A DNA stretch of 64,000 nt from Ekhidna sp. Lineage in GTDB: Bacteria; Bacteroidota; Bacteroidia; Cytophagales; Cyclobacteriaceae. The stretch's first letter is position 1, and each line of letters begins with the position of its first letter. The stretch is taken from contig JACONI010000111.1 of the NCBI GenBank assembly GCA_014323825.1, positions 1-64,000 on the forward strand, in the 5' to 3' direction. Positions 1 to 64,000 of this stretch are shown piece by piece. The notes under the pieces are model-generated. The model was not told the origin of the DNA. It made no database searches and saw only the letters and a list, made by a program, of their open reading frames with translations. The position numbers and the translations under genes are program-made.

Positions 1-1872
1 GTGGTGTCTTCTGTTATGGTTACGGTCTGTGTTTGTACAATGCTTTTGCTGTTATGGGTGTAGGTCCACGTAATGAGGGTGCTTTCGGTAATAGGGAACG
101 CATCGTTGGGAATATTGTGCATGGCCGTAACCTTTGTCCCCTCTCCCACTGTGCAGCTGCTCTTAGCGGTAGGAGCGTTCAGTTCAGCTTTAGTGACTTC
201 ACACTGTGAGTTCACTTCCGGCAGGGCGGCTGCTTCCGTCCGTATGGGGATTAACTCATCTCCTGTGATGGTCCAGGAATGCGTGTCTGTGAGCACGTCC
301 CTTCCCACTTTCCCTCTACAAGAGTACTTATCCGGTGCAGCGAAGGTGATGCCGGAGGGGATTTTAGTCTCGCCCGCATCTGTGTCTAAGGTGCTCCACC
401 CGATGAGGAGTTTATCGTAGTTTTCGGAAGACATAGAGGAGCTAATAAACATGAACTGAACAGGTAGTATAAAGTTTAATACACCATTTCTATTCTCAAG
501 AATAGTTCTCAGACTAGAGATATCCCATTCGCTGATGTCCTGGTTGAAGGAAGAATTCTGGAACATGCCCTGCATAGTCGTCACGCTGCTCACATCCCAT
601 TCGCCGATTTCTTGATTGAATAAAGACTGATAAAACATTGCGTACATATTTGTGACACTGCTCACGTTCCATTTACTGATGTCCCCATTAAAGGAAGACT
701 GAAAAAACATGAGTCCCATATTCGTCACGTTGCTTACGTTCCATTTACTAATGTCCCCATTGAAAGAAGACTGATAAAACATAGCCTGCATATTCGTCAC
801 ACTGCTTACGTTCCATTTACTAATGTCCCCATTGAAGGAAAATTGATAAAACATGAAACTCATATCTGTCACACTCCTCACATTCCATTCGCTGATATCC
901 TGGTTGAAGGAAGAAGCCCCATAAAACATAGCCCGCATATTTATCACGCTGCCTACATTCCATTTGCTGATGTCTTGATTAAAGGGAGACTGATAAAACA
1001 TGAAACTCATATCTGTCACACTCCTCACATTCCATTTACTGATGTCTCGGTTGAAGGAAGACTGATAAAACATGAAACTCATATCTGTCACACTGCTCAC
1101 ATTCCATTCGCTGAGGTTTCCGTCAAAGGAAGAGTTCTGAGCAAACATGGCCTGCATATTCGTGACGCTGCTTACGTCCCAGTCACTGATGTCTCCGTCA
1201 AAGGAAGCCCCAACAAACATGCGATCCATATTCGTGACGTTGCTGACATCCCACTCGCTGAGGTCTCCGCTTAAGCTAGAACTTTGAAACATGCGAATCA
1301 TATCCGTCACTGCTGAAAGGTCCGGGGCATCCGTGGCATTGATGGTCAGGTTACTACAGCCCGCAAAAGCTAACTCCATGGAAGCCCATTCAATGTCTCC
1401 CCACTGCTCCACGGAGCGTAGCTGCCCTGCCGCAGGAGTCGGTGTGAACGTGGTTCCAACGAATTGTGCAAACTGAACACGTGGAAAAGTACCGCTGATG
1501 GTGACGGTGTGGGTTCCTGCTGAGTTATAGGAATGGGAGGCATTCCCGTTGTAGGTGTTGTTATCGGCAGGTTCATCTTCCCCCCAATCTACGGTGTAGC
1601 TGTAGCCGTCTCCTGTGGTGGGAATGGTAATGGTTTCATTATCAGCAGTTGTCTGCCACGTGGTAATGAAGGGTTTCGGGTCGTCTTGTGCCTGCCCAAA
1701 GAGAGCGATCAGAATAGTGAAGATTAAGAAAAAGGTATTTTTTGGAGATAGGATTATATTATAGGGGGGGGGGGGGCATTAAATTAAGCCCGTACAGCCC
1801 TTTTGACAGCGTATGTGACGTGTTCTTCGTATTCATGATGTTTTTTGGTCTTTTTTTATTTAACGTGCTCAT
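1..1872 (-). CDS. BspA-like (DUF285) surface protein, copy 1; partial (runs off window start); 5' end out of frame because of a 13-C tract
   Basis: Reverse complement reads ...DLSEWDVSNVTNMDRMF...-type DUF285 repeats. Leader ATG at 1872 (MSTLNKKRPKNIMNTKNTSHTLSKGLYGLNLM-PPPP), then C13 and a signal-peptide-like FFLIFTILIALFGQAQDDP that is in frame only with C12. Confidence 0.8.
1764..1776 (-). repeat. Poly-C (13 nt) homopolymer in the 5' coding region of BspA copy 1
   Basis: G x13 on + strand directly next to cat (ATG on minus); 13 Cs give ATG CCC CCC CCC CCC CTA TAA stop. Confidence 0.9.
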
Positions 1873-1901: not shown

Positions 1902-1909
1902 CAAAGATA
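1902..1909 (-). promoter_or_regulatory. Putative Bacteroidota -7 element (TATCTTTG)
   Basis: Matches TAnnTTTG, ~30 nt upstream of ATG 1872; same spacing at the two sister loci. Confidence 0.5.
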
Positions 1910-6609: not shown

Positions 6610-8758
6610 TTATCGCTTCACAAACTTCAGCAAACGGCCGTCCGGCAGTTGGACAAGGTACAGGCCGCTGTGCAGGGAAGCTGCGTCTATCCTTGTGTTT
6701 GTGTTGCTTTCCAGCACTAACTCCCCTCCCACACTCAGGATGCGTACCGGGCTTTCCACGGAAGACTGCACCTCCACGTAACGCCCCGAAGGATTGGGGA
6801 AGACCACTGCTTCCGATGCATCACCCGCCGCACTCAGCACACATGGAGTAATCGTCACCTCTTGCGTTTGTGTGGCGGTGTTGCCCGCATTATCAGTGTA
6901 CGTCCACGTGATGGTGATTTCAGACGTGATGGGGAAATCGGTGATATTGTGCGAGCCCTTGATGGAGCCATCGCAATTGTCCGTGGCCGTGGGCACGGGT
7001 AGATCAGCTTCTTCTAGCGAACATGCTGCGGTAATGGCGTTCAGGTCTGTAACTCTCGGAGCCTCGGTATCAGCGATGGTCACCTTCTGCGTTTGCTCGG
7101 ACGTATTGCCGTCCTCGTCGGTATATACCCACGTGATAGTAGTGGTGCCAGCCTGAATGGGGAAAGAAGTGCCGGATTTGATCGCCACGTTGACCGTCCC
7201 TCCACAGTTGTCTGCGGGGGCAGCAGGTTTGGTCAGTTCAGTGGCATCATTGATCGGGCATTGTGCGGTAATCTCCTGTAAATTCCCCGTAACATCCGGG
7301 GCCTCGGTATCCCCTATGGTCACGTCCTGCGTTTGCTCGGCTGTATTACCTGCCTCATCGGTGAAGGTCCACGTGATGGTGATTTCAGAGGTGATGGGGA
7401 AATCGGTGATATTGTGCGATCCCTTGATGGAACCATCGCAATTGTCCATGGCGGCGGGAGCGGTAGCATTCAGTTCAGCTGCCGTGATTTGTGAACATAC
7501 AATAATTGCGTCCAGGCTTGCTTCATCAGGCAGGGGGTCGGTGGTGTCTTCTGTTATGGTTACGGTCTGTGTTTGTACAATGCTTTTGCTGTTATGGGTA
7601 TAGGTCCAAGTAACGAGGGTGCTTTCGGTAATGGGGAACGTACTGACATCATGCGCAGCCGTGACCGTTGTTCCTTCTCCTATCGTGCAGCTGCTCTTAG
7701 CGGTGGGCGGGGTGAGGGAAGCAATACATTGTGAGGTCACTTCCTGCAGGGCGGTTTCGTCCGTCCGTATGGGGACTAACCCATCATCTGTGATAGTCCA
7801 GGAATATTTGATGGTAAGTGTGTCCCTTCCCGCTTTGCCTCTACAGGAGTACTTAGCCGGTATTGCGAAAGAGATGTTGGAGGGGATTTTAGTCTCGCCC
7901 GCCTGTTTGTCTAAGGTGCTCCACCCGATGAGGAGTTTATCGTAGTTTTCGGAAGACATGGCAAAGGCGCTGGTAAATATGCATTGCATATTCTTCACGC
8001 TGCTGATGTCCCATTTACTAAGGTCTCCGTTGAAGGCAGACAGAGCGAACATGCTTGTCATATTCGTCACCTTACTTACGTCCCATTTGCTGAGGTCTCC
8101 GTTGAAGGAAGACTGAGAGAACATGCCACTCATATTTGTCACGTTGCTTACGTCCCATTCGCTGAGGTCTCCGTTGAAGGAAGAATTGCTAAACATGGAA
8201 CCCATATCCGTCACGTTTGAAAGGTCCGGGACTCCCGCATCATCCGCAATGGTGAGGTTTTTACAACTCCGGAAAGCTTCCCTCATGGAAGTCCAAGCGA
8301 TATCTCCCCACTTTTCGACGGAGCGTATCTGCTGTGCGGGAGTGGGGTTCCTTCGAAAGTAGATACGTGGGAAAGTCCCGCTGATGGTTACGGTGTGAGT
8401 GCCGGGGGTCGTGTAGGAGTGAGAAGCATCTCCAGTGTAAGTGTTGTTATCGGCAGGTTCGTCTTCCCCCCAGTTTACGGTGTAGCTATAGCCACTTCCT
8501 GTGGTAGGGATGGTAATGGTTTCATTAGGTTCGGTTGTTTCCCATGTGGTGATGAAGGGTTTCGGGGTCTCCTGCGCCTGCCCGAAGAGTGCGAGGAGGA
8601 ATGTGGAGATGACAAGAAGGGTATTTTTTGGAGATAAGATTAGACTATAGGGGGGGGGGGGGCATTAAATTAAGCCTGTACAGCCCTTTCGGCAGCGTGT
8701 GTGACGTGTTCTTCACGTCAGTGATGTTTTTTTGATTTTTTTTATTTAACGTACTCAT
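6610..8758 (-). CDS. BspA-like (DUF285) + HYR-like repeats + T9SS type A sorting domain, copy 2; 5' end out of frame because of a 13-C tract
   Basis: Body ORF 6610..8286 extends in frame to 8649 with signal-peptide-like LLVISTFLLALFGQAQETP. Leader ATG at 8758 (MSTLNKKNQKNITDVKNTSHTLPKGLYRLNLM-PPPP). C-terminus SLHSGLYLVQLPDGRLLKFVKR. Confidence 0.85.
8650..8662 (-). repeat. Poly-C (13 nt) homopolymer in the 5' coding region of BspA copy 2
   Basis: G x13 on +; 13 Cs give ATG (CCC)4 CTA TAG stop; 12 Cs would read TAT AGT CTA ATC ... into the body. Confidence 0.9.
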
Positions 8759-8786: not shown

Positions 8787-8794
8787 CAATGTTA
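8787..8794 (-). promoter_or_regulatory. Putative -7 element (TAACATTG, one mismatch to TAnnTTTG)
   Basis: ~29 nt upstream of ATG 8758, aligned with the elements at the other two loci. Confidence 0.35.
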
Positions 8795-16038: not shown

Positions 16039-18396
16039 TTATCCCCCGCTTGGCGGCCGAAGGACAACGACGAATTGTGATTTTTTCGTAGGGTCTGTGT
16101 TGCTGGTAAGAGTAATGATAGCATACGTATTTACGCTTCCGCTGGGCGGCAGATAGTTAAAATGTACAGTAGTCACTCCGTCCCCTACTACGATTGGATT
16201 ATTAGCCCGCAAACGAATACTTTTGGCCGGACTTACAGATAAGGTATATGAATCCGCCGTGCCACCAACGGTAAAATTAAAAACAGACATTTTTATGTCG
16301 TTCATATAGTCAGATCTAGTAAGAGGTGTCATTCTTTCCCCAAATCTTATAACACCCCCAACATTCGGATTGAAGAATGTCGTTTCGCTGGGGGCACTTC
16401 CCGTCCAATTTACCATATTTTTCGTTTGATTGACGGTAATCGTCCATTCATTTCCGCCTGTTCCCGAAACCGTCAGCATAATCGCGCGGCTATTATTATC
16501 AGCGGTTGACGGATATTCCCCCACCACCATCGAAAACCGCTTATCGCCCAATTTTTGTATTTCGGCATCAGGAATAATGGCATTATTAGACGAGGTAATC
16601 GTCCAATTCGTAAGCGTCGTCTCTACATATACTGTATACACGTTTGCATAGCCCGGCACATTTATCGTAGTATTTGTGCTGCTGACTGTAAAATCTGCCG
16701 CCAGCACAGTTATATCGGCCATAACTGACAGCTTTCCGTCAGATACTTTTACCGTAAGGGTATAATTCGGATTATTCTCAAAGTCCAGCGCCCCTGCCGT
16801 GGTAAGGGCTCCGGTAGTTCGATTTATATCGAACAAATCGCCGGTATTTCCCGAAGTGATGGTAAACATGAGGTCGTCCTCCTCCGGGTCTGTGGCCTGC
16901 ACGGTTCCGACAGCGGTTCCGTTCATCGCATCTTCGGGCACGGAGAAGGTCTGATCGGCAATGGCTGGTGCTTCATTTACATCTGTAACATTGACGGTGA
17001 TGTCGGCCGTAGCCGAGAGGCTTCCATCGGAGACGCTTACGGTCAGGGTATAAGTTGAGGTGTTCTCAAAGTCCAGCGACCCTGCCGTTGTAATGGCTCC
17101 GGTAGTTCGATCTATAGCGAATAGCGCCCCTGCTGTCGTAATAGCCCCTGTGCCTTCACCTATACATCGCCTGTATTTCCCGCAGTGATGGTAAACATGA
17201 GGTTGTTCATGTCCGCATCCGCAGCCTGCACGGTTCCGACTGCCGTGTTGTTAGCAGCATCTTCGGCTACAGTAAAGGTTTGATCGGTAATAGTAGGCGC
17301 ATTATCATTTACATTGGTCACATTGATGGTTACGTTGGCTGTTGCCGAGAGGCTTCCATCGGAGACGCTTACGGTCAGGGTATAAGTTGAGGTGTTCTCA
17401 AAGTCCAGCGCCCCTGCCGTTGTAAGGGCTCCGGTACCTTCATTTATAGCGAATACATCGCCAGTATTTCCCGCAGTGATGGCAAACATGAGGTTATTCG
17501 TTTCGGCATCACTAGCCTGCACCGTCCCGACTGCGGTTCCATTCACCGCATCTTCGGGTACGGAGAAGGTCTGCTCGGTAATGGCCGGTGCAGTATTTAC
17601 GGGTTCAGAGGTACCTGTGTCTTCGTTGACATCGGTCACATTGATGATTATGTCGGCCTCATCTGCCAACTCTCCGTCCGAGACGCTTACTTTAAGGGTA
17701 TAAGTCGGAGCGGTCTCAAAGTCGAGTGTTCCTGCTGTAGTAATGGCACCCGAAGATGCATTTATAGCGAAAGCATTACCTGTATTTCCCGAAGCGATAG
17801 TAAAGGTGAGGTCGTCCTCCTCTTCGTCCGCAGCCTGCACGGTTCCTACTGCGGTTCCGTTCGCTGCATCTTCGGCTAGGGAGAAGGTTTGCTCAGGAGT
17901 AATAGTCGGCGCTTCATTTACATCAGTAACATTGATGGTAATGTCAGCCGTAGCCGAGAGTTCCCCATCGGAGACGGTTATGGTGAGGGTATAATTCGGA
18001 GTAGTCTCAAAGTCGAGATTCTTATTAGTGAGCAGTTGCCTCCGTTCAGCATTTATGGCAAATGCCTCGTCGGTATTCCCTTCGGTAATGGCAAACCTCA
18101 AGGCCTCCTGCTCTTCATCGTTCGCCTCGACGGTCTCCACCACCGTCCCTATTGGGACATTTTCGGCGATAGAAAAAGTCAGATCGTCGATGGTTGGCGG
18201 GGTATTTTTTTTCCCGCTGTCATCGTCCCCACAGGCGGACAGCACCAACCCCGTGATGATAAATAGAACAACTTTTGGAAAAAGTGTAACTATTCTTAGG
18301 GGGGGGGGGGGGTAAATGAAGCCCGTACAGCCCCTTTAACAGTGTATATGACGTGTTCTTTCTATCCGTAATGTTTTTTGATCTAATGTAACTCAT
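16039..18396 (-). CDS. Cadherin-repeat (CA-like) surface lipoprotein, phase-OFF by a 14-C tract and internally frameshifted
   Basis: ORFs 17160..18248 and 16039..16941 are one gene split at ~17160. Upstream frame gives LRIVTLFPKVVLFIITGLVLSAC lipoprotein signal. Leader ATG at 18396 (MSYIRSKNITDRKNTSYTLLKGLYGLHL) then C14. Confidence 0.75.
18299..18312 (-). repeat. Poly-C (14 nt) homopolymer in the 5' coding region of the cadherin lipoprotein
   Basis: G x14 on +; leader and body are in frame only with 13 (or 10/16) Cs. Confidence 0.9.
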
Positions 18397-18424
18397 AGCT
18401 CTTTATTTTAGTTGGTATGAAATG

Positions 18425-18432
18425 CAAAGCTA
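18425..18432 (-). promoter_or_regulatory. Putative -7 element (TAGCTTTG)
   Basis: Matches TAnnTTTG, ~29 nt upstream of ATG 18396. Confidence 0.5.
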
Positions 18433-18569
18433 TATAAGTTTTTTTATTTGCTGTATAAATTTTAATTTTTTTCAAAATACCTCCTGTGCAACGGTCTCAA
18501 ATTGTGAGGATATCCCTCCGAGAATGACCTGAACGTGTCCACCGCCACAGACAACTGCCTACAGGTTAA

Positions 18570-43382: not shown

Positions 43383-46300
43383 CTACCGCACAAAAATCCT
43401 TCGTGAGGTCTCAAACACTCCATCCTCCGCATTAATTACAACGAATTTAACTTCCTTTATTCCGGGAGTAGTGAATGTATAACTCATAGATCGGCCATTA
43501 GCAACTTCGATGTCATTAACGATCCATTTGTATTCTGCCGGTCCATAGTGATTCAATCCACTTACTGAAAAACTCTTACGCTGTCCAACGTAAACGGTCC
43601 CGGCAGTTACATTAATGGCAGCACTCATCGTGTTCCTTTCGTTTCCGTAATTATACCGATACCGTTTAATGATATTATTATCTTCGTCTCTAATCAAGTG
43701 AAGACGATTTCTATTGTCATATTCATAGGTTATCGTTTCTCCTGTTGGATTCGTAACAGTTTTTACTCCTACTAATGGTTGGTAGGTATAGCTGATAGTC
43801 CGTTTAAGACTTTCCACACCGGGATCAACTGTTTCAGATAGTAAATACCCTTGTGCATCGTATATATAATTAGTAGTAATACCATCCCGAGAGGAAAGAT
43901 TGGAGGATACAAGACCATTTGTGTGATAGGACATAATACTGATATTTTCCAAGTCCGATGAGTTCCATCTTCCCGGCTGACTTAATGACAAACTATAACG
44001 TTTATAAAGCTGTATTTTATTTGAAAAAATTCGATAATCGTTCAATGAAACACTTGAAGTTCTATAGGAGGAATGACTTGGTAGTTTTACCTGATATTCT
44101 GTTACGATAGGTACACCTATCATGTGTCTACCTACCATAGATGACAAAACACTTGATTTAAGCAGTCTTTTTTCAGGAATGAAAGAACTGAAAGGGTAAT
44201 AAATTCGCTGATTAACTGCATGATTTTCTCCACCTGAATTCATTGTTATGACTTGAACAGGTAAGGTTTCATGGTTGTGATTATATATGTAATCTGTTTT
44301 GGTGGTAGTCATTAAAGATACTCCGTCGTTATCATAGCTTTTTGTTACCGAATAATCAAGATAAATGTTGCGTGTAGTAATACTGTAAGTAGGTACTTCA
44401 TAATGAAACTTAATTCTTTTATCCCTACCGAGCCAGTTTTCATGTTCTTCATATTTGAAATAATGAAACGTATGATTTCGAACAGTATAGTCAGGTCTTT
44501 TTTCATGTTCATATTTGTATTCTGTTTCACTCACCTTTTTATTTCCTTCATCATAAATTATCGTTTTCCATTCAATCCCTCTGTCATAGTAGGACTGAGA
44601 AGCCGGAGAAAAAGGATAGTTGTTCTCAACAAAATCGTTATCGGAAAATCGGATGCTTTCATTAATCTTATCAATTATTACATGTTTTTTTTCTTCAATA
44701 ACGAGCGGCCTATCTCTTAAATCCTTAAAGTAGTGATCAACGTAGTTTCTATCAAGGATTGAAGTCTCCCTCACTCTACCATAGCCATTTGACGGCCCGC
44801 TAACCTCCCAAATGTTGGATGCAGGGTATTGTATCAAGGCAAACTGTTTTTTACCAACCCCAACCCCCCCACTTCTCCAGTACTTAAACTTATATCCTAC
44901 ATAAGTCGTAGTTCTCGGTGCCTGATTCTCATCATAATAAGTATAAGATGTACCGCTTACTAAATTTCTATTTTTGTCAAAATGCCTAATCGCACCAATT
45001 CTTACACCGCCGTGATTCGCATGTGATCCATACGTAAATTCTTGGCTACCTCCTGTTGGAAATGTTACTTTGGTTAAAATATTTGCTCTCGCATAACCAT
45101 TAGGACTTTTATTCATACCTTTTGTTATATAACTGGATCTATTACGGTATTCTGCATTCCAAACATACAACCTTGACTGACTGCCCTGATGTGGTCCCCC
45201 ATTATAAAAGCCCCAATGGTCAGTGTAATAAGATCCTCTTGGAGGAAGTTCGTATTTATTCGCTCCTCCGACATGAAGTTCATTATTATCATTAATGTAC
45301 CCGAACTTATAAACTGCCAAACCGTCTTTTACCAAAGAGTTAAGCCTCAGGCGATATCTTTTCTCTCCGAAAGCAAATGTGTTCTTTCCTCCCTTATAAT
45401 AAGAATTTCGTGCATCAAAATAACTCTGATTAAGGTTAGTCGTGCTGACCTCACGATTATTATGATCCTTTAGTTGAACAGATGTCAGCCTCACTCCATC
45501 AGATAAGTCGAACCTTGAGAAATTATATTTAAACTCAACCTTTCCTTTCGGAAATTGAATAACAGAAACGTACTTTGCCGTAATTGTTGATTTAAAATAA
45601 TTGATGTCGTAACGTTTTCGCATGCAATGATTACAATTATCATCTGTTGAGCAACTGACAAGACAACTCTGATAACTATCACCTAATCCTGCCATATAAC
45701 TTCGCTCTTCCTCAATAAGTGTACGCCCTATGTATCTCAGATCTATACCATTACTTTCCGGCTGATTGGCATAGACAATGCGATCTAAGTGCCATGTGGA
45801 AATGAATTGACGCTCATTTTCACGTACATAAGAAGTATTATCCCTATTATCTTTGTAATTGGTAGTGGTAGTTTCTCTCGATGAATATGTTTGACCGAAG
45901 TAATATTTATTCCCATAGATATCTGTGATAATGAAATGAGAATTAAGATCACTATTCTTGACAAATTCAATTTTCAAGTCTGATGAAGGTAGTGCATGGA
46001 ACTTGTCGAAACTAAGCCCTGCCTGACCATTGGTTCTCTTTTGGCAATTATTACTACTACAACGAGCATGGCATGTTTCATGACTATTGCGTTCGCTATA
46101 CCTGCATGGATAATAGCAAGAGTTATAGTCAGATCTATACCTGTTCATACATTGATTGTAAAATGGGTCATCAGTGTATTTTTGGTTTGACCAGGTAACG
46201 TAATCACTACCAAAAATGAACCTCCCACTACCCCCCGGAAATGAGAAATAAAAGAGATCCTTTTCAAAATCATAATATTTAGTATTTTCCCGGAGTTGAC

Positions 46301-46652
46301 TCATCTTATGATACGAAAGAGTTTCTGTAAATCTAGCTTGCTCGTCAGGCTCTCCACGCATCACTCGCGTAATAGCCCCTCCTGCAATAAGCTGCCAGCC
46401 AAGCCCTGCAACACCGGATACTTCGTTTACCCTGATGCCGCCGGCATTGTACTGAAGGGAAACGGGGACAGTTGCACCGTTATTTGCCTGTGCCTCATAC
46501 AACGGAACGGATACGGAAACCACCCCATCGTATAAACTCACAGGTGTATTGATACCCCTTACTAGAGCAGATGCATCCGGTGAGAGTATACTCTGGCTAT
46601 ACACAATAAGGGAATAAATAAAAAAAGCCAGTAGGGATAAATATTTTTTCAT
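43383..46652 (-). CDS. RHS/YD-repeat secreted protein with C-terminal PKD-like domain
   Basis: SPDASALVRGINTPVSLYDGVVSVSVPLYEA (Bacteroidota RHS N-terminus), YD-type repeats ITYEYDNRNRLHLIRDEDNNIIKRYRYNYG, PKD-like SYTFTTPGIKEVKFVV. Confidence 0.75.
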   Translation of the reverse strand: MKKYLSLLAFFIYSLIVYSQSILSPDASALVRGINTPVSLYDGVVSVSVPLYEAQANNGATVPVSLQYNAGGIRVNEVSGVAGLGWQLIAGGAITRVMRGEPDEQARFTETLSYHKMSQLRENTKYYDFEKDLFYFSFPGGSGRFIFGSDYVTWSNQKYTDDPFYNQCMNRYRSDYNSCYYPCRYSERNSHETCHARCSSNNCQKRTNGQAGLSFDKFHALPSSDLKIEFVKNSDLNSHFIITDIYGNKYYFGQTYSSRETTTTNYKDNRDNTSYVRENERQFISTWHLDRIVYANQPESNGIDLRYIGRTLIEEERSYMAGLGDSYQSCLVSCSTDDNCNHCMRKRYDINYFKSTITAKYVSVIQFPKGKVEFKYNFSRFDLSDGVRLTSVQLKDHNNREVSTTNLNQSYFDARNSYYKGGKNTFAFGEKRYRLRLNSLVKDGLAVYKFGYINDNNELHVGGANKYELPPRGSYYTDHWGFYNGGPHQGSQSRLYVWNAEYRNRSSYITKGMNKSPNGYARANILTKVTFPTGGSQEFTYGSHANHGGVRIGAIRHFDKNRNLVSGTSYTYYDENQAPRTTTYVGYKFKYWRSGGVGVGKKQFALIQYPASNIWEVSGPSNGYGRVRETSILDRNYVDHYFKDLRDRPLVIEEKKHVIIDKINESIRFSDNDFVENNYPFSPASQSYYDRGIEWKTIIYDEGNKKVSETEYKYEHEKRPDYTVRNHTFHYFKYEEHENWLGRDKRIKFHYEVPTYSITTRNIYLDYSVTKSYDNDGVSLMTTTKTDYIYNHNHETLPVQVITMNSGGENHAVNQRIYYPFSSFIPEKRLLKSSVLSSMVGRHMIGVPIVTEYQVKLPSHSSYRTSSVSLNDYRIFSNKIQLYKRYSLSLSQPGRWNSSDLENISIMSYHTNGLVSSNLSSRDGITTNYIYDAQGYLLSETVDPGVESLKRTISYTYQPLVGVKTVTNPTGETITYEYDNRNRLHLIRDEDNNIIKRYRYNYGNERNTMSAAINVTAGTVYVGQRKSFSVSGLNHYGPAEYKWIVNDIEVANGRSMSYTFTTPGIKEVKFVVINAEDGVFETSRRIFVR

Positions 46653-59658: not shown

Positions 59659-62600
59659 TTAGTACCGACGAGGTATCCGGTAAATAAAGCTTTTTGGATA
59701 CTTAGGATAACCTATCAGCATACCATTTAAACTATCCGTATAAGCACTAACTCCCCCAAACGGAAAATTATGACCTGGAAAAAATCCTTGATTCTTAAAT
59801 GCGTGAACATAGCCATGAACTTCTTCTAGATAATAATCAAATCCAAGCCCTTGAAAATCGGCAGGAAGTTCTGCTAGCCCTCTCCCTGATAAAATATTTG
59901 CAGAATGATAACTTTCTTTAAAGTACGTTGCCTTTAAGGTTGCGTAATTTTCAAAAGCCAAATTACCGTATCTTATTTCTCCTGTTTTAGGATTTGTAAC
60001 TCCCCAGTAATCTTTAGCTTGATAATTTTTTGAAGTAACATTTGGATCATAAGTCCCCTCAAACCCAAAATAATCTAATGCTCCCTGATAATCACCACGT
60101 CCTACAAACCCAGCTAATACCCTACTATTACTTCTAAATTCTTGTCCTCTCACAGCATTTCTTAGTTGTGGTGAAGTAGCTGTAGCAAAGACCCCGCCAA
60201 ATGCACCACCAAACAGTGCACCTCGTCCAATATCTCCGCCATTTAAAGCCGAGCCTAAAAATCCTGTCATAGCCCCCGTCCCTATTCCAACTCCCACTTG
60301 CCCCGCAAAACTTTCAACACTCCCTCCAACTGTTCCTAAACTTGCTCCCGCAGCTCCGGTAACTGCTCCACGCCATGCACCTCCTAAAAAGCTCCCCCCA
60401 TGAATGGACGAAGTAAGGCCACCACTTACAAAACCGGATGATGCGCCTCCTGCTGCTATGGCTCCAAATCCTGTTGAAACTCCTATACTTGCCGTAAATG
60501 ACGATCCTGATGCCCAGGCTGTAGCTCCTACTCCTGTAGTTCCTGCCGCCGCTCCTATCAAAGCCCCTCTCCAAAATCCACCTAAAAATGTTCCGCCACT
60601 ATTTGCTGATTGTATTCCGCTAGTAGTTCCTCCAATCGCAGCACCAATAATAATCGGTACAAACCACGCCAGTTCCCCATTCGGATCAATTGTCAGGTGT
60701 GGAACATTTCCCATCCCTACATAAGGACTGCTAAACTGCCCGACAGGATCTACCGCAAAAAACCGCCCCAGAGCAGGATCATAAGATCGGGATAAAAAGT
60801 CATAATACCCCGTCAGGCTGTCGTAAGAGGCGTAAGAAGACTGATACAACACTCCCGGGTCAGTATAGTTTGGTGCCCGCCAGCTATTGGACGTTTTCAG
60901 ACCGAAGGGGTAATAATCGTTGATTTGCGTCACCCGAAAAGCTGCATCTCCGGACGTGTGGGTGATCTTCAAGTCATCAAAGTAAACATCTTGGTTGCGG
61001 TTCGACTCATTGACCAAATAAACGAACAGATAGCCGTCCTGATCAAAGGTAAGCGGTCCCGTAGCATACCGGTCATACTGCCCTTTGGAGGTGCTCACCA
61101 CAGCCAGAAAACCGGAATTACTCCGCTGATACACATAGTCTGCGTCAAAGAAAATATATTGCAAATACGCTCGGGGCCGTCCGCCTGTAGGGCCGCTGAA
61201 GAGGCCGCCGGCTGCGGGGCTGGACAGCACACGGGACAAACTACCGGAGGCGGACTCGGCTCCGGTACCTGCACCGGACGCTCCAAAACCTCCCAAAACG
61301 GCACTTACAAGGGAAGGAATAATACTGTTATCCCATCCCCCCGCACTGTATTTTGCCCAAAATTCCATCTCCACTTTATCACCTCGCTTAATATTTAAAA
61401 CCTTTGCAGGGCCCAGCGGACGGGAAAACCCATTCAGTGCCACACTTTTACTGCCCAACGGCGTATGATTGCTCGCCGAAGAGCGAACATTGGAAGGGAA
61501 GGCAAATTCACTTGATTCTTGGGCAGAACGGGCATCTTCCATCGTTGCCAGGTAAACATTCTGCTCAGGCAGCCGGCCAAAAGCCAGCCGGTTGTTGGCC
61601 TGATGATCGGTAATATAGTACTCGTAATAGTAGCTGCCGTTCTGTGCGTAAACCCGCCCTTCATCCGTAGAGAGTTGACAGAGCTCATCATTCAGAAACT
61701 CGGAAGGTCCCAGATAGTCTACTTTGGCAATGACGTGATTTTCCTTATCCTTGATCGTTTTAGACAGTCTATTCCCCACCGCATCATAAGTGTAGTCAAT
61801 GACCATCACCACATTGCCGGAGCCCCGCTCAAAAGTGATTTTATCAACCAACTGTAGGTGATTATAAGAGAGGTAAAGCTCTTTATGTGCATCTGCGGTC
61901 ATATTTCCAGTGAGCGCATCGTAGCTAAACTCCCCGTGGTAATCTGTTGCCATGCCCCGGTTAAGGTTGTCAAATCCGGCAGCAGTACCGCCATCCGTTA
62001 CCTTGCGCAATTGGTTACTCCCGTTCGGATAGTCATAATCCAGCTTATCAATAACAATGTTATCGGACTTTCTCGTCAGCAGATCAAGGTTACCATTGTC
62101 ATCGTAGGAAGCCGTCATGTTGAAATGGTCTCTGTCCATAAGGTAAGCCGAACCCGCTGCCTCCGCATATTTCGTGCCTTTCAGCCGGCCCCGTCCATCG
62201 TAGTTGAATCCCACGCCGTATTTTGTGGTGCCGTTGGGGCCGCTTCCGGGATTCACCGCCGGCGTAACGCCCGTAGCGTTCCATGTCATCGCGTTCAGCA
62301 GGCCGTTGTATCGGTTGGTTTTGTCCGTCCCCGAAATGGGAGATCGACCCTCATAGTAGTAGTCCATTCCAAAGAGATCACCATCCGAGGAAAGGTCATC
62401 AGGGTCGTTGATGGATTTTATATGCCCCTGAAGCGTGTATCGGTAGTCCACGGATTGGAGAAAACTGTGGCCGCCGTCGGTGGAGTGGAGGCGCTTCTCT
62501 ACCAACTCCCCTACGGCGTTGTATGTGTACGCTGCCAGCAATACTTCGCCGCTTCCGCCTGTATTTTGAAATACTCTTCGCAACCGGCCCCTGTGATCAT

Positions 62601-64000
62601 ATTCGTAACGCTTATCATAGGTAACTGAGGTCCCGGATGAATAGTGGTATTCATGGTGGCTTTTCAGCACGCTGCCCTCCCAGTCATACGCATAGGTGAT
62701 CACATCCTGCGGCCTTGTATAATATGTCAGGTGGTTTTTTGAGATCAACTGTAGTTGACGATATTTATCGTCATAATAAATTACGGTATTTAAAAACCGG
62801 TCACTCCCAAGGACCCTGACTTTACTGCCTGTAGGCATATCCAAGGGTGCGGTGAGGGGATTACCCGTGTAGCCGGGGACACTCTGAAAATGGTATTCGG
62901 ACTCCCGATTTTCCGTATCCCAGCTAGGATCATTTAAAAATTGATAATTATCATAATAGTTTACCGTAAGCAAAGCGCTGTTTGCCAGGCTGTAATCACT
63001 TGAGAACCTCGGAAAAGCATTGTCCTCGGTATAAACTCCCGAGTTGGAAGGGAGCGATTCATACCGGATACCTCCGCCCATTTTCGCCATCACACGTGCA
63101 CGGGAATCGTTGGTCTTGACCTGACCTGACACCACCTGCCTGTTGAGGGCATCGTATTTGTAAAAAGTCCAGGAATTTCTCCCCTCCCATTTTTGACCCT
63201 CGTATCTGGTCATCACCAAGCGGTCCCACTGATCATACACATTATAGTGTCTGGGGCCGCCGGGAGCTTGTTGCTCTACCAAACGGCCTCGTTCGTCATA
63301 AACATATTGGAACATCAACGCTCTCGCCTGTGAAGCGGTGAAAACATTGGGAAAGGTATGATCTAAACCGGCGGTGAGCGAAGGAGGAACAACGAACACC
63401 ACACGTCCGTAATCATCGTACACGCTGTAGGAACCGTACCACTTGCTGTCGGTCGGGTCAAAGATTTGGGTGGTAATGGTCAGCCCGCGCAGGTCTTTAA
63501 CCGTTCTCATCTTTAAGCCCTCCGGATCAGTCGTCTCTACCACGGAAAGAGACCTCGCACCGTAAACTCCACTATTTTGCGGAAGTCCGTTCACCATTCG
63601 CCATTTAAATACTTTGAAGTCAGTGCCCGGATTGTGTACCTTGTACGCATAACGTGTTTTCCTGGCCGTGGCATGGCTGTTCGTGTGCCAGGCTTCACCC
63701 GGAGCGATGACAGACTTTACACGCCCGCGAGGGTCATACTCCATATAGGAATAGGGTTTGGGGTCTGTAGCTATGGTGGAGGAGGTCGGGGAGGTGTAAA
63801 AACTGACGGAACGGTTGTAGGCATTCGAAGCATACGCTCCGCCGGAGCCGGCAGCTTGGGGATAGGGCATGTACGACCTGTCCGGCCTCGCACTAACAGC
63901 ATTATAATAACCCGGCTGAACGAGGTCTTCATATTGGGGACCAGCGGCCACGGCCACACTCATCGTCTCTCTACCCATGCCGTCAGAATAGGCGTAAGAT
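59659..64000 (-). CDS. RHS repeat-associated core domain polymorphic toxin (partial; runs off window end)
   Basis: YD repeats; core LTGYYDFLSRSYDPALGRFFAVDPVGQFSSPYVGMGNVPHLTIDPNGE; frame open to 64000 (...SYAYSDGMGRETM). Confidence 0.9.
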   Translation of the reverse strand, partial: SYAYSDGMGRETMSVAVAAGPQYEDLVQPGYYNAVSARPDRSYMPYPQAAGSGGAYASNAYNRSVSFYTSPTSSTIATDPKPYSYMEYDPRGRVKSVIAPGEAWHTNSHATARKTRYAYKVHNPGTDFKVFKWRMVNGLPQNSGVYGARSLSVVETTDPEGLKMRTVKDLRGLTITTQIFDPTDSKWYGSYSVYDDYGRVVFVVPPSLTAGLDHTFPNVFTASQARALMFQYVYDERGRLVEQQAPGGPRHYNVYDQWDRLVMTRYEGQKWEGRNSWTFYKYDALNRQVVSGQVKTNDSRARVMAKMGGGIRYESLPSNSGVYTEDNAFPRFSSDYSLANSALLTVNYYDNYQFLNDPSWDTENRESEYHFQSVPGYTGNPLTAPLDMPTGSKVRVLGSDRFLNTVIYYDDKYRQLQLISKNHLTYYTRPQDVITYAYDWEGSVLKSHHEYHYSSGTSVTYDKRYEYDHRGRLRRVFQNTGGSGEVLLAAYTYNAVGELVEKRLHSTDGGHSFLQSVDYRYTLQGHIKSINDPDDLSSDGDLFGMDYYYEGRSPISGTDKTNRYNGLLNAMTWNATGVTPAVNPGSGPNGTTKYGVGFNYDGRGRLKGTKYAEAAGSAYLMDRDHFNMTASYDDNGNLDLLTRKSDNIVIDKLDYDYPNGSNQLRKVTDGGTAAGFDNLNRGMATDYHGEFSYDALTGNMTADAHKELYLSYNHLQLVDKITFERGSGNVVMVIDYTYDAVGNRLSKTIKDKENHVIAKVDYLGPSEFLNDELCQLSTDEGRVYAQNGSYYYEYYITDHQANNRLAFGRLPEQNVYLATMEDARSAQESSEFAFPSNVRSSASNHTPLGSKSVALNGFSRPLGPAKVLNIKRGDKVEMEFWAKYSAGGWDNSIIPSLVSAVLGGFGASGAGTGAESASGSLSRVLSSPAAGGLFSGPTGGRPRAYLQYIFFDADYVYQRSNSGFLAVVSTSKGQYDRYATGPLTFDQDGYLFVYLVNESNRNQDVYFDDLKITHTSGDAAFRVTQINDYYPFGLKTSNSWRAPNYTDPGVLYQSSYASYDSLTGYYDFLSRSYDPALGRFFAVDPVGQFSSPYVGMGNVPHLTIDPNGELAWFVPIIIGAAIGGTTSGIQSANSGGTFLGGFWRGALIGAAAGTTGVGATAWASGSSFTASIGVSTGFGAIAAGGASSGFVSGGLTSSIHGGSFLGGAWRGAVTGAAGASLGTVGGSVESFAGQVGVGIGTGAMTGFLGSALNGGDIGRGALFGGAFGGVFATATSPQLRNAVRGQEFRSNSRVLAGFVGRGDYQGALDYFGFEGTYDPNVTSKNYQAKDYWGVTNPKTGEIRYGNLAFENYATLKATYFKESYHSANILSGRGLAELPADFQGLGFDYYLEEVHGYVHAFKNQGFFPGHNFPFGGVSAYTDSLNGMLIGYPKYPKSFIYRIPRRY
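60366..60493 (-). repeat. Direct repeat copy B inside the full-length RHS gene
   Basis: Same 128-bp block as 57970..58097, same orientation, offset 2396 bp. Confidence 0.9.

Follow-up and report, generated by a model that had tools for sequence, protein, structure and literature searches.

A recurrent promoter–leader–poly-C block before surface-protein genes of an Ekhidna genome as a candidate translational phase-variation cassette

Three loci in the window

The window, i.e., positions 1–64,000 of contig C111 of a 3.01-Mb draft genome in 122 contigs (G000), contains three surface-protein genes preceded by one and the same block, which, judging from its sequence, is very probably a promoter–leader–tract cassette by which surface-protein genes become phase-variable at the level of translation. 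The loci are named here by the start of their tracts (1764, 8650, and 18299, all on the minus strand). The first-pass annotation had placed the same block at these three sites, and a second reading of boxes, leaders, and the C13, C13, and C14 tracts agreed with it (Table 1). The leader ATGs are located at 1872, 8758, and 18396, approximately 28 nt from the boxes. All three leaders are open, as had been described; of the codon counts given for them (31, 31, and 28), the third was correct, and the first two leaders have 32 codons. The body types were likewise confirmed, as Pfam assigned DUF285 to the 1764 and 8650 bodies and cadherin repeats to that of 18299. These tracts are the only C or G runs of at least 8 in the window, and the chance expectation for C-runs of at least 11 in 64 kb is 0.003. 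As assembled, their lengths leave all three genes OFF.

Table 1. Coordinates of the features at the three leader-A loci (window positions).
Locus	Feature	Positions	Strand	Remarks
1764	Box TATCTTTG	1902..1909	-	Direct reading
1764	Leader A, 32 codons, MSTLNKKRPKNIMNTKNTSHTLSKGLYGLNLM, ATG at 1872	1777..1872	-	Open
1764	C13 tract	1764..1776	-	OFF in assembly; ON predicted at C12 or C15
1764	Body: signal segment YNIILSPKNTFFLIFTILIALFGQA, DUF285 repeats	3..1763	-	Extends past contig end
8650	Box TAACATTG, one mismatch to TAnnTTTG	8787..8794	-	Direct reading
8650	Leader A, 32 codons, MSTLNKKNQKNITDVKNTSHTLPKGLYRLNLM, ATG at 8758	8663..8758	-	Open
8650	C13 tract	8650..8662	-	OFF in assembly; ON predicted at C12 or C15
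8650	Body: signal segment YSLILSPKNTLLVISTFLLALFGQA, DUF285, HYR, type IX sorting tail (Por_Secre_tail)	6610..8649	-	
18299	Box TAGCTTTG, TAnnTTTG-type, Bacteroidota promoter	18425..18432	-	Direct reading
18299	Leader A, 28 codons, MSYIRSKNITDRKNTSYTLLKGLYGLHL	18313..18396	-	Open in the frame common to other copies
18299	C14 tract	18299..18312	-	OFF in assembly; ON predicted at C13
18299	Body: lipoprotein signal segment RIVTLFPKVVLFIITGLVLSAC, then cadherin repeats	17160..18298	-	Frame lost near 17163
18299	Shared promoter–leader module, ~180 bp, approximate extent	18313..18492	-	Column identity, 41 copies

The 18299 gene bears a second interruption, after which cadherin coding goes on in another frame (ORF 16039–16941). 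This interruption (17150–17200, minus strand) reflects either a degraded gene or an assembly collapse of repeats. Since the frame is lost here, an ON tract by itself may not yield the full protein. Two overlapping ATGs are found before leader A (positions 1864–1880 and the homologous positions elsewhere), opening MSYEHVK-type and MSTLNKK-type frames, and the 18299 leader starts at the first of the two (MSYIRSK). Elsewhere in the window, positions 43383–46652 and 59659–63978, both on the minus strand, encode big RHS-repeat/DUF6443 proteins.

The leader A module and its coding nature

The module consists of a promoter, a 5′UTR, and a leader of 28–32 codons, together about 180 bp, and is followed by poly-C. 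In an alignment of 41 copies, column identity is 0.58–0.88 over the ~180 bp before the tract, whereas it is 0.34–0.40 farther upstream; the module begins sharply, with its 5′ edge ~180 bp ahead of the tract, and the DNA beyond this edge is unrelated. This profile indicates that the repeated unit comprises promoter, 5′UTR, and leader, inserted in unrelated surroundings. The TAnnTTTG box is perfect in 22 of 42 leader-A copies and carries one mismatch in a further 16, usually with 28–29 nt to the ATG. A sigma-70 promoter scan gave no match, as expected for a Bacteroidota promoter.

Nearly all leader-A copies are open in one frame, which ends at the tract, and their pN/pS is 0.51. A stop in the leader frame occurs in 1 of 42 copies, whereas random substitution would be expected to put stops into 11.8 of 35 distinct copies; this test assumes independent copies and is indicative only because the copies are not independent. 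The single copy with a stop has a second in-frame ATG behind it. In the other two frames, stops are present in all 35 distinct copies. From its frame and substitution pattern, leader A is judged to be a coding sequence.

Start of translation and frame states

On the body side of the tract, 72 of 73 genes lack any ATG, GTG, or TTG located 15 or more residues ahead of the predicted cleavage site. Proteins of the same family in two genomes of the same genus, G008 and G009, have their own ATG start and no tract. Taken together, the lack of a usable body start and the relatives' own ATGs place the start in this genome before the tract. A start downstream of the tract, capable of making the signal peptide, is ruled out for those 72 bodies. 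The leader might instead be regulatory and non-coding, or an upstream ORF in its own right, with the body using its own start, and in several copies short overlapping ATG ORFs of the MSYEHVK type do lie close to where the leader begins. Yet this explanation is scarcely credible in view of the 72 start-less bodies and the frame and codon constraint in the leader.

In 60 of 61 intact junctions, a tract of C10–C15 lies between the coding leader and the signal segment. A junction was scored as ON when the sum of leader phase, tract, and body offset was divisible by three. By this measure, the assembly has 10 of the 61 junctions in the ON state, a deficit relative to one third (p = 0.004), with tract lengths taken from a short-read draft and unreliable. 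Laboratory growth, assembly bias, or selection is a possible cause of this deficit. The off-frames stop within five codons after the tract in 119 of 144 cases, versus 26% inside the same genes; tallied by body class, early stops are found in roughly 11 of 16 frames. These stops may limit off-frame products. Two of the features expected of homopolymeric translational phase variation, a 5′ coding tract and early out-of-frame stops, are present. Off-frame stops are clustered in the 15 nt that follow the tract, and in A-type bodies both wrong frames are stopped in 25 of 25 copies.

Internal homopolymers are also found in SusC-like receptors, where a G-run within the CarboxypepD-reg domain leaves the gene open at G11 (contig C92) and broken at G12 (contig C113). 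Such runs were observed in receptors on contigs C7, C10, C14, C92, and C113 (L053, L055, L059, L089, and L101, respectively), and the same run is present in G009 (L159). Homopolymers can make RNA polymerase or the ribosome slip, and slippage of this kind at the tract would provide some in-frame product in every cell, setting a level rather than ON and OFF states. This alternative is very unlikely, as the off-frame stops just past the tract fit length-dependent switching and the internal G-runs of the receptors are length-dependent in the same way.

It had also been proposed that one C more or less would switch each gene translationally. The anatomy supports this proposal well, with open leaders, no downstream start, off-frame stops, and ordinary starts in relatives; the switching itself we infer. 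At two scaffold gaps, a single tract is present in two lengths (C13/C12 on contig C7 and C13/C15 on contig C70), which hints at length heterogeneity, although slippage during sequencing or PCR, or the collapse of paralogues, could be responsible. MutS1 is intact in this genome and there is, therefore, no sign of a general mutator; MutS loss is ruled out as the reason for tract growth.

Scale and lineage restriction

A search of the whole genome with the ~180-bp leader, as suggested by the first-pass annotation, showed that its three sites had understated the scale more than 10-fold. About 47 copies of leader A were found, ~41 of them as good BLAST matches to the 18299 module and the remainder by other means. 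All copies left uncut by contig ends and gaps lead into a C tract. Genome-wide, C-runs of at least 11 number 97, counted as one per tract, compared with 0.13 expected from composition; within the stretches neighboring tracts, 108 runs of at least nine Cs were read, some of them doubly counted across gaps. Elsewhere, the maximum number of C-runs of at least 11 is 12 in 197 other genomes of the family, 11 in a sample of the order outside the family, and 30 in a sample of the phylum. In G185, G450, G664, G688, and G749, which have 11–30 tracts, most of the loci inspected are GC-rich stretches of low complexity that lack the leader design. Leader A is absent from the 58 relatives searched. Across the genomes compared, the poly-C leader design is restricted to this lineage.

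Some tracts of this genome lie in other contexts. A C11 run at C104:634 (L097) is located within a methyltransferase-like gene, out of frame in the assembly, and a C13 run at C119:21364 (L106) lies on the opposite strand of an apparent outer-membrane receptor gene. The bodies at C72:73787, C100:5528, and C109:26082 carry repeats of the WSDGTTxWVAD...KLYAYTLATG type, for which Pfam gives a weak PQQ_2 match only.

Other leader families and relatives

At least seven more leader families (B–F, H, and I) are joined via poly-C to the same kinds of start-less signal segments. The same-genus genome G009 has its own unrelated leader family (MNRISDHKTLKSLFNAAGVHKS), which also ends in poly-C and has 26 matches there, in a fragmented assembly with low-complexity stretches, and none in this genome; at one locus, it is in frame through C12 into the signal peptide. 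A plain form of the design is found in G167, G207, G212, and G223 (L144, L122, L143, and L141), each with a single secretion-signal gene in which C12–C13 comes right after a short ATG start, without a shared leader. These single tract genes are possible simple forerunners.

Does the leader move?

The earlier suggestion that the leader travels as a unit can be followed only part of the way. In its favor are the sharp 5′ edge, the pairing of leader A with three signal-segment classes, and mixes of leaders and bodies; against it, most leader families stay with one body class. As for such mixes, the bodies of 18299 (leader A) and C111:72912 (leader D) are 90–93% identical over 700 bp and their upstream regions only 52%, and on contig C117 leader H stands before an A-type body. 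The leader was absent from plasmid and phage records and, as an exact pattern, from viral contigs, and no terminal repeat was noticed by eye at the 5′ edge of the module.

The constancy of body class in most families would also be expected if whole genes sharing one 5′ edge had been duplicated, without any movement of the leader alone, and the bodies had changed downstream by divergence or domain shuffling. For the leader-A set as a whole, leader distance does correlate with body distance (r = 0.59). However, this correlation is gone within the 19 A-type genes, where leader distance gives r = −0.01 with the signal and 0.10 with the body and still 0.37 with the promoter. The closely similar bodies of 18299 and C111:72912, with their dissimilar upstream regions, are likewise difficult to reconcile with duplication of whole genes, which is thus considered rather doubtful.

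A lipoprotein body follows leader A only once among 42 leader-A tracts, at 18299, and this pairing could be an assembly chimera, in which the poly-C common to both sequences linked leader A to a lipoprotein body; if so, leader mobility is less well supported than it appears. Many contigs end in poly-C, 20-N gaps are located at tracts, some contigs have identical body ends in common, and the 18299 gene bears the second interruption described above. Nevertheless, no N occurs in the 73.5-kb contig that contains the junction, and the sequence in which the leader ends there, CTTCATTTA ahead of the Cs, is atypical of the copies, which makes a chimeric join through common sequence less likely. Mixes other than 18299 exist, namely the C117 locus and the two further signal classes found behind leader A, and within the A-type set leaders and bodies are uncorrelated. 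A chimera is, therefore, regarded as unlikely.

A bolder reading, given slightly less than even odds, is that recombination copied interchangeable promoter–start cassettes ending in poly-C to the front of unrelated surface-protein genes whose secretion signals lack a start, with the tract perhaps acting as both switch and joint, and that two species of the genus may each have expanded a cassette family of their own.

Proposed mechanism and implications

In the proposed mechanism, transcription would begin at the TAnnTTTG promoter and translation at the leader ATG. The ribosome would read about 30 codons, then the poly-C as prolines, and then the secretion signal that lacks its own start. With leader and signal in frame, expression would yield an N-terminally extended pre-protein, presumably exported by Sec with its extended signal (ON); with one C gained or lost, reading would usually end within a few codons past the tract (OFF). 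Slipped-strand mispairing at C10–C15, the rate of which is presumed rather than read from the tracts, would switch the genes independently and create a mosaic surface. The cassettes have been amplified within the genome, and leader–body swaps, by a presumed route of recombination at or near the tract, have probably helped.

If this is true, the tract genes would form one of the largest homopolymer-switched gene sets in a genome, in which BspA-like proteins, cadherin and BACON lipoproteins, and SusC-like receptors would be reached together. The cassette would also account for the truncated gene calls of these proteins and for the breaks in the assembly at these sites. Given such truncated calls and breaks at tracts, similar systems may go unseen in other short-read Bacteroidota genomes.

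Comparison with known systems

Autotransporters with extended signal peptides (ESPR) have secretion signals with a long N-terminal extension. The proteins described here would resemble them in form, with the difference that the tract separates the extension from the signal. In the searchable literature on poly-C/poly-G phase variation and BspA, no matching system was found in Bacteroidetes or Cyclobacteriaceae.

The gonococcal opa family of Neisseria comprises 11–12 paralogues with CTTCT repeats (PMC5320596). As in opa, dispersed surface-protein genes would each be switched separately by a frame-changing 5′ repeat. In contrast to opa, a single family with a pentamer, the present set is built on poly-C, comprises ~100 tracts and several unrelated body families, and has its repeat between a separate leader and the signal peptide (PMC5320596). 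In an opa-like family, homologous mature proteins would be expected behind the repeat-bearing 5′ end, whereas the bodies here are of DUF285, cadherin, and BACON types.

In Campylobacter, the poly-G/C phasome has a median of 20 tracts per C. jejuni draft genome (PMC6321876). Both genomes contain homopolymeric G/C tracts genome-wide that are predicted to switch surface functions; however, the tracts are approximately five times more numerous here, and dozens of them stand under one promoter–leader cassette instead of being gene-specific (PMC6321876). Closer in protein type is Candidatus Mycoplasma girerdii, for which the part of the source consulted describes BspA-like genes with variable dinucleotide repeats and length variants in reads (PMC5476646). 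Repeat-length switching of BspA-like proteins is predicted in both, with a number of genes OFF in the main variant. The repeats of Ca. M. girerdii are dinucleotides in another phylum, and, as far as that part of the source extends, a shared leader cassette is described only here (PMC5476646). Collectively, these comparisons indicate that the switch principle is already established, and that the present system differs in its scale, in the use of one cassette across unrelated proteins, and in bodies without a start of their own.
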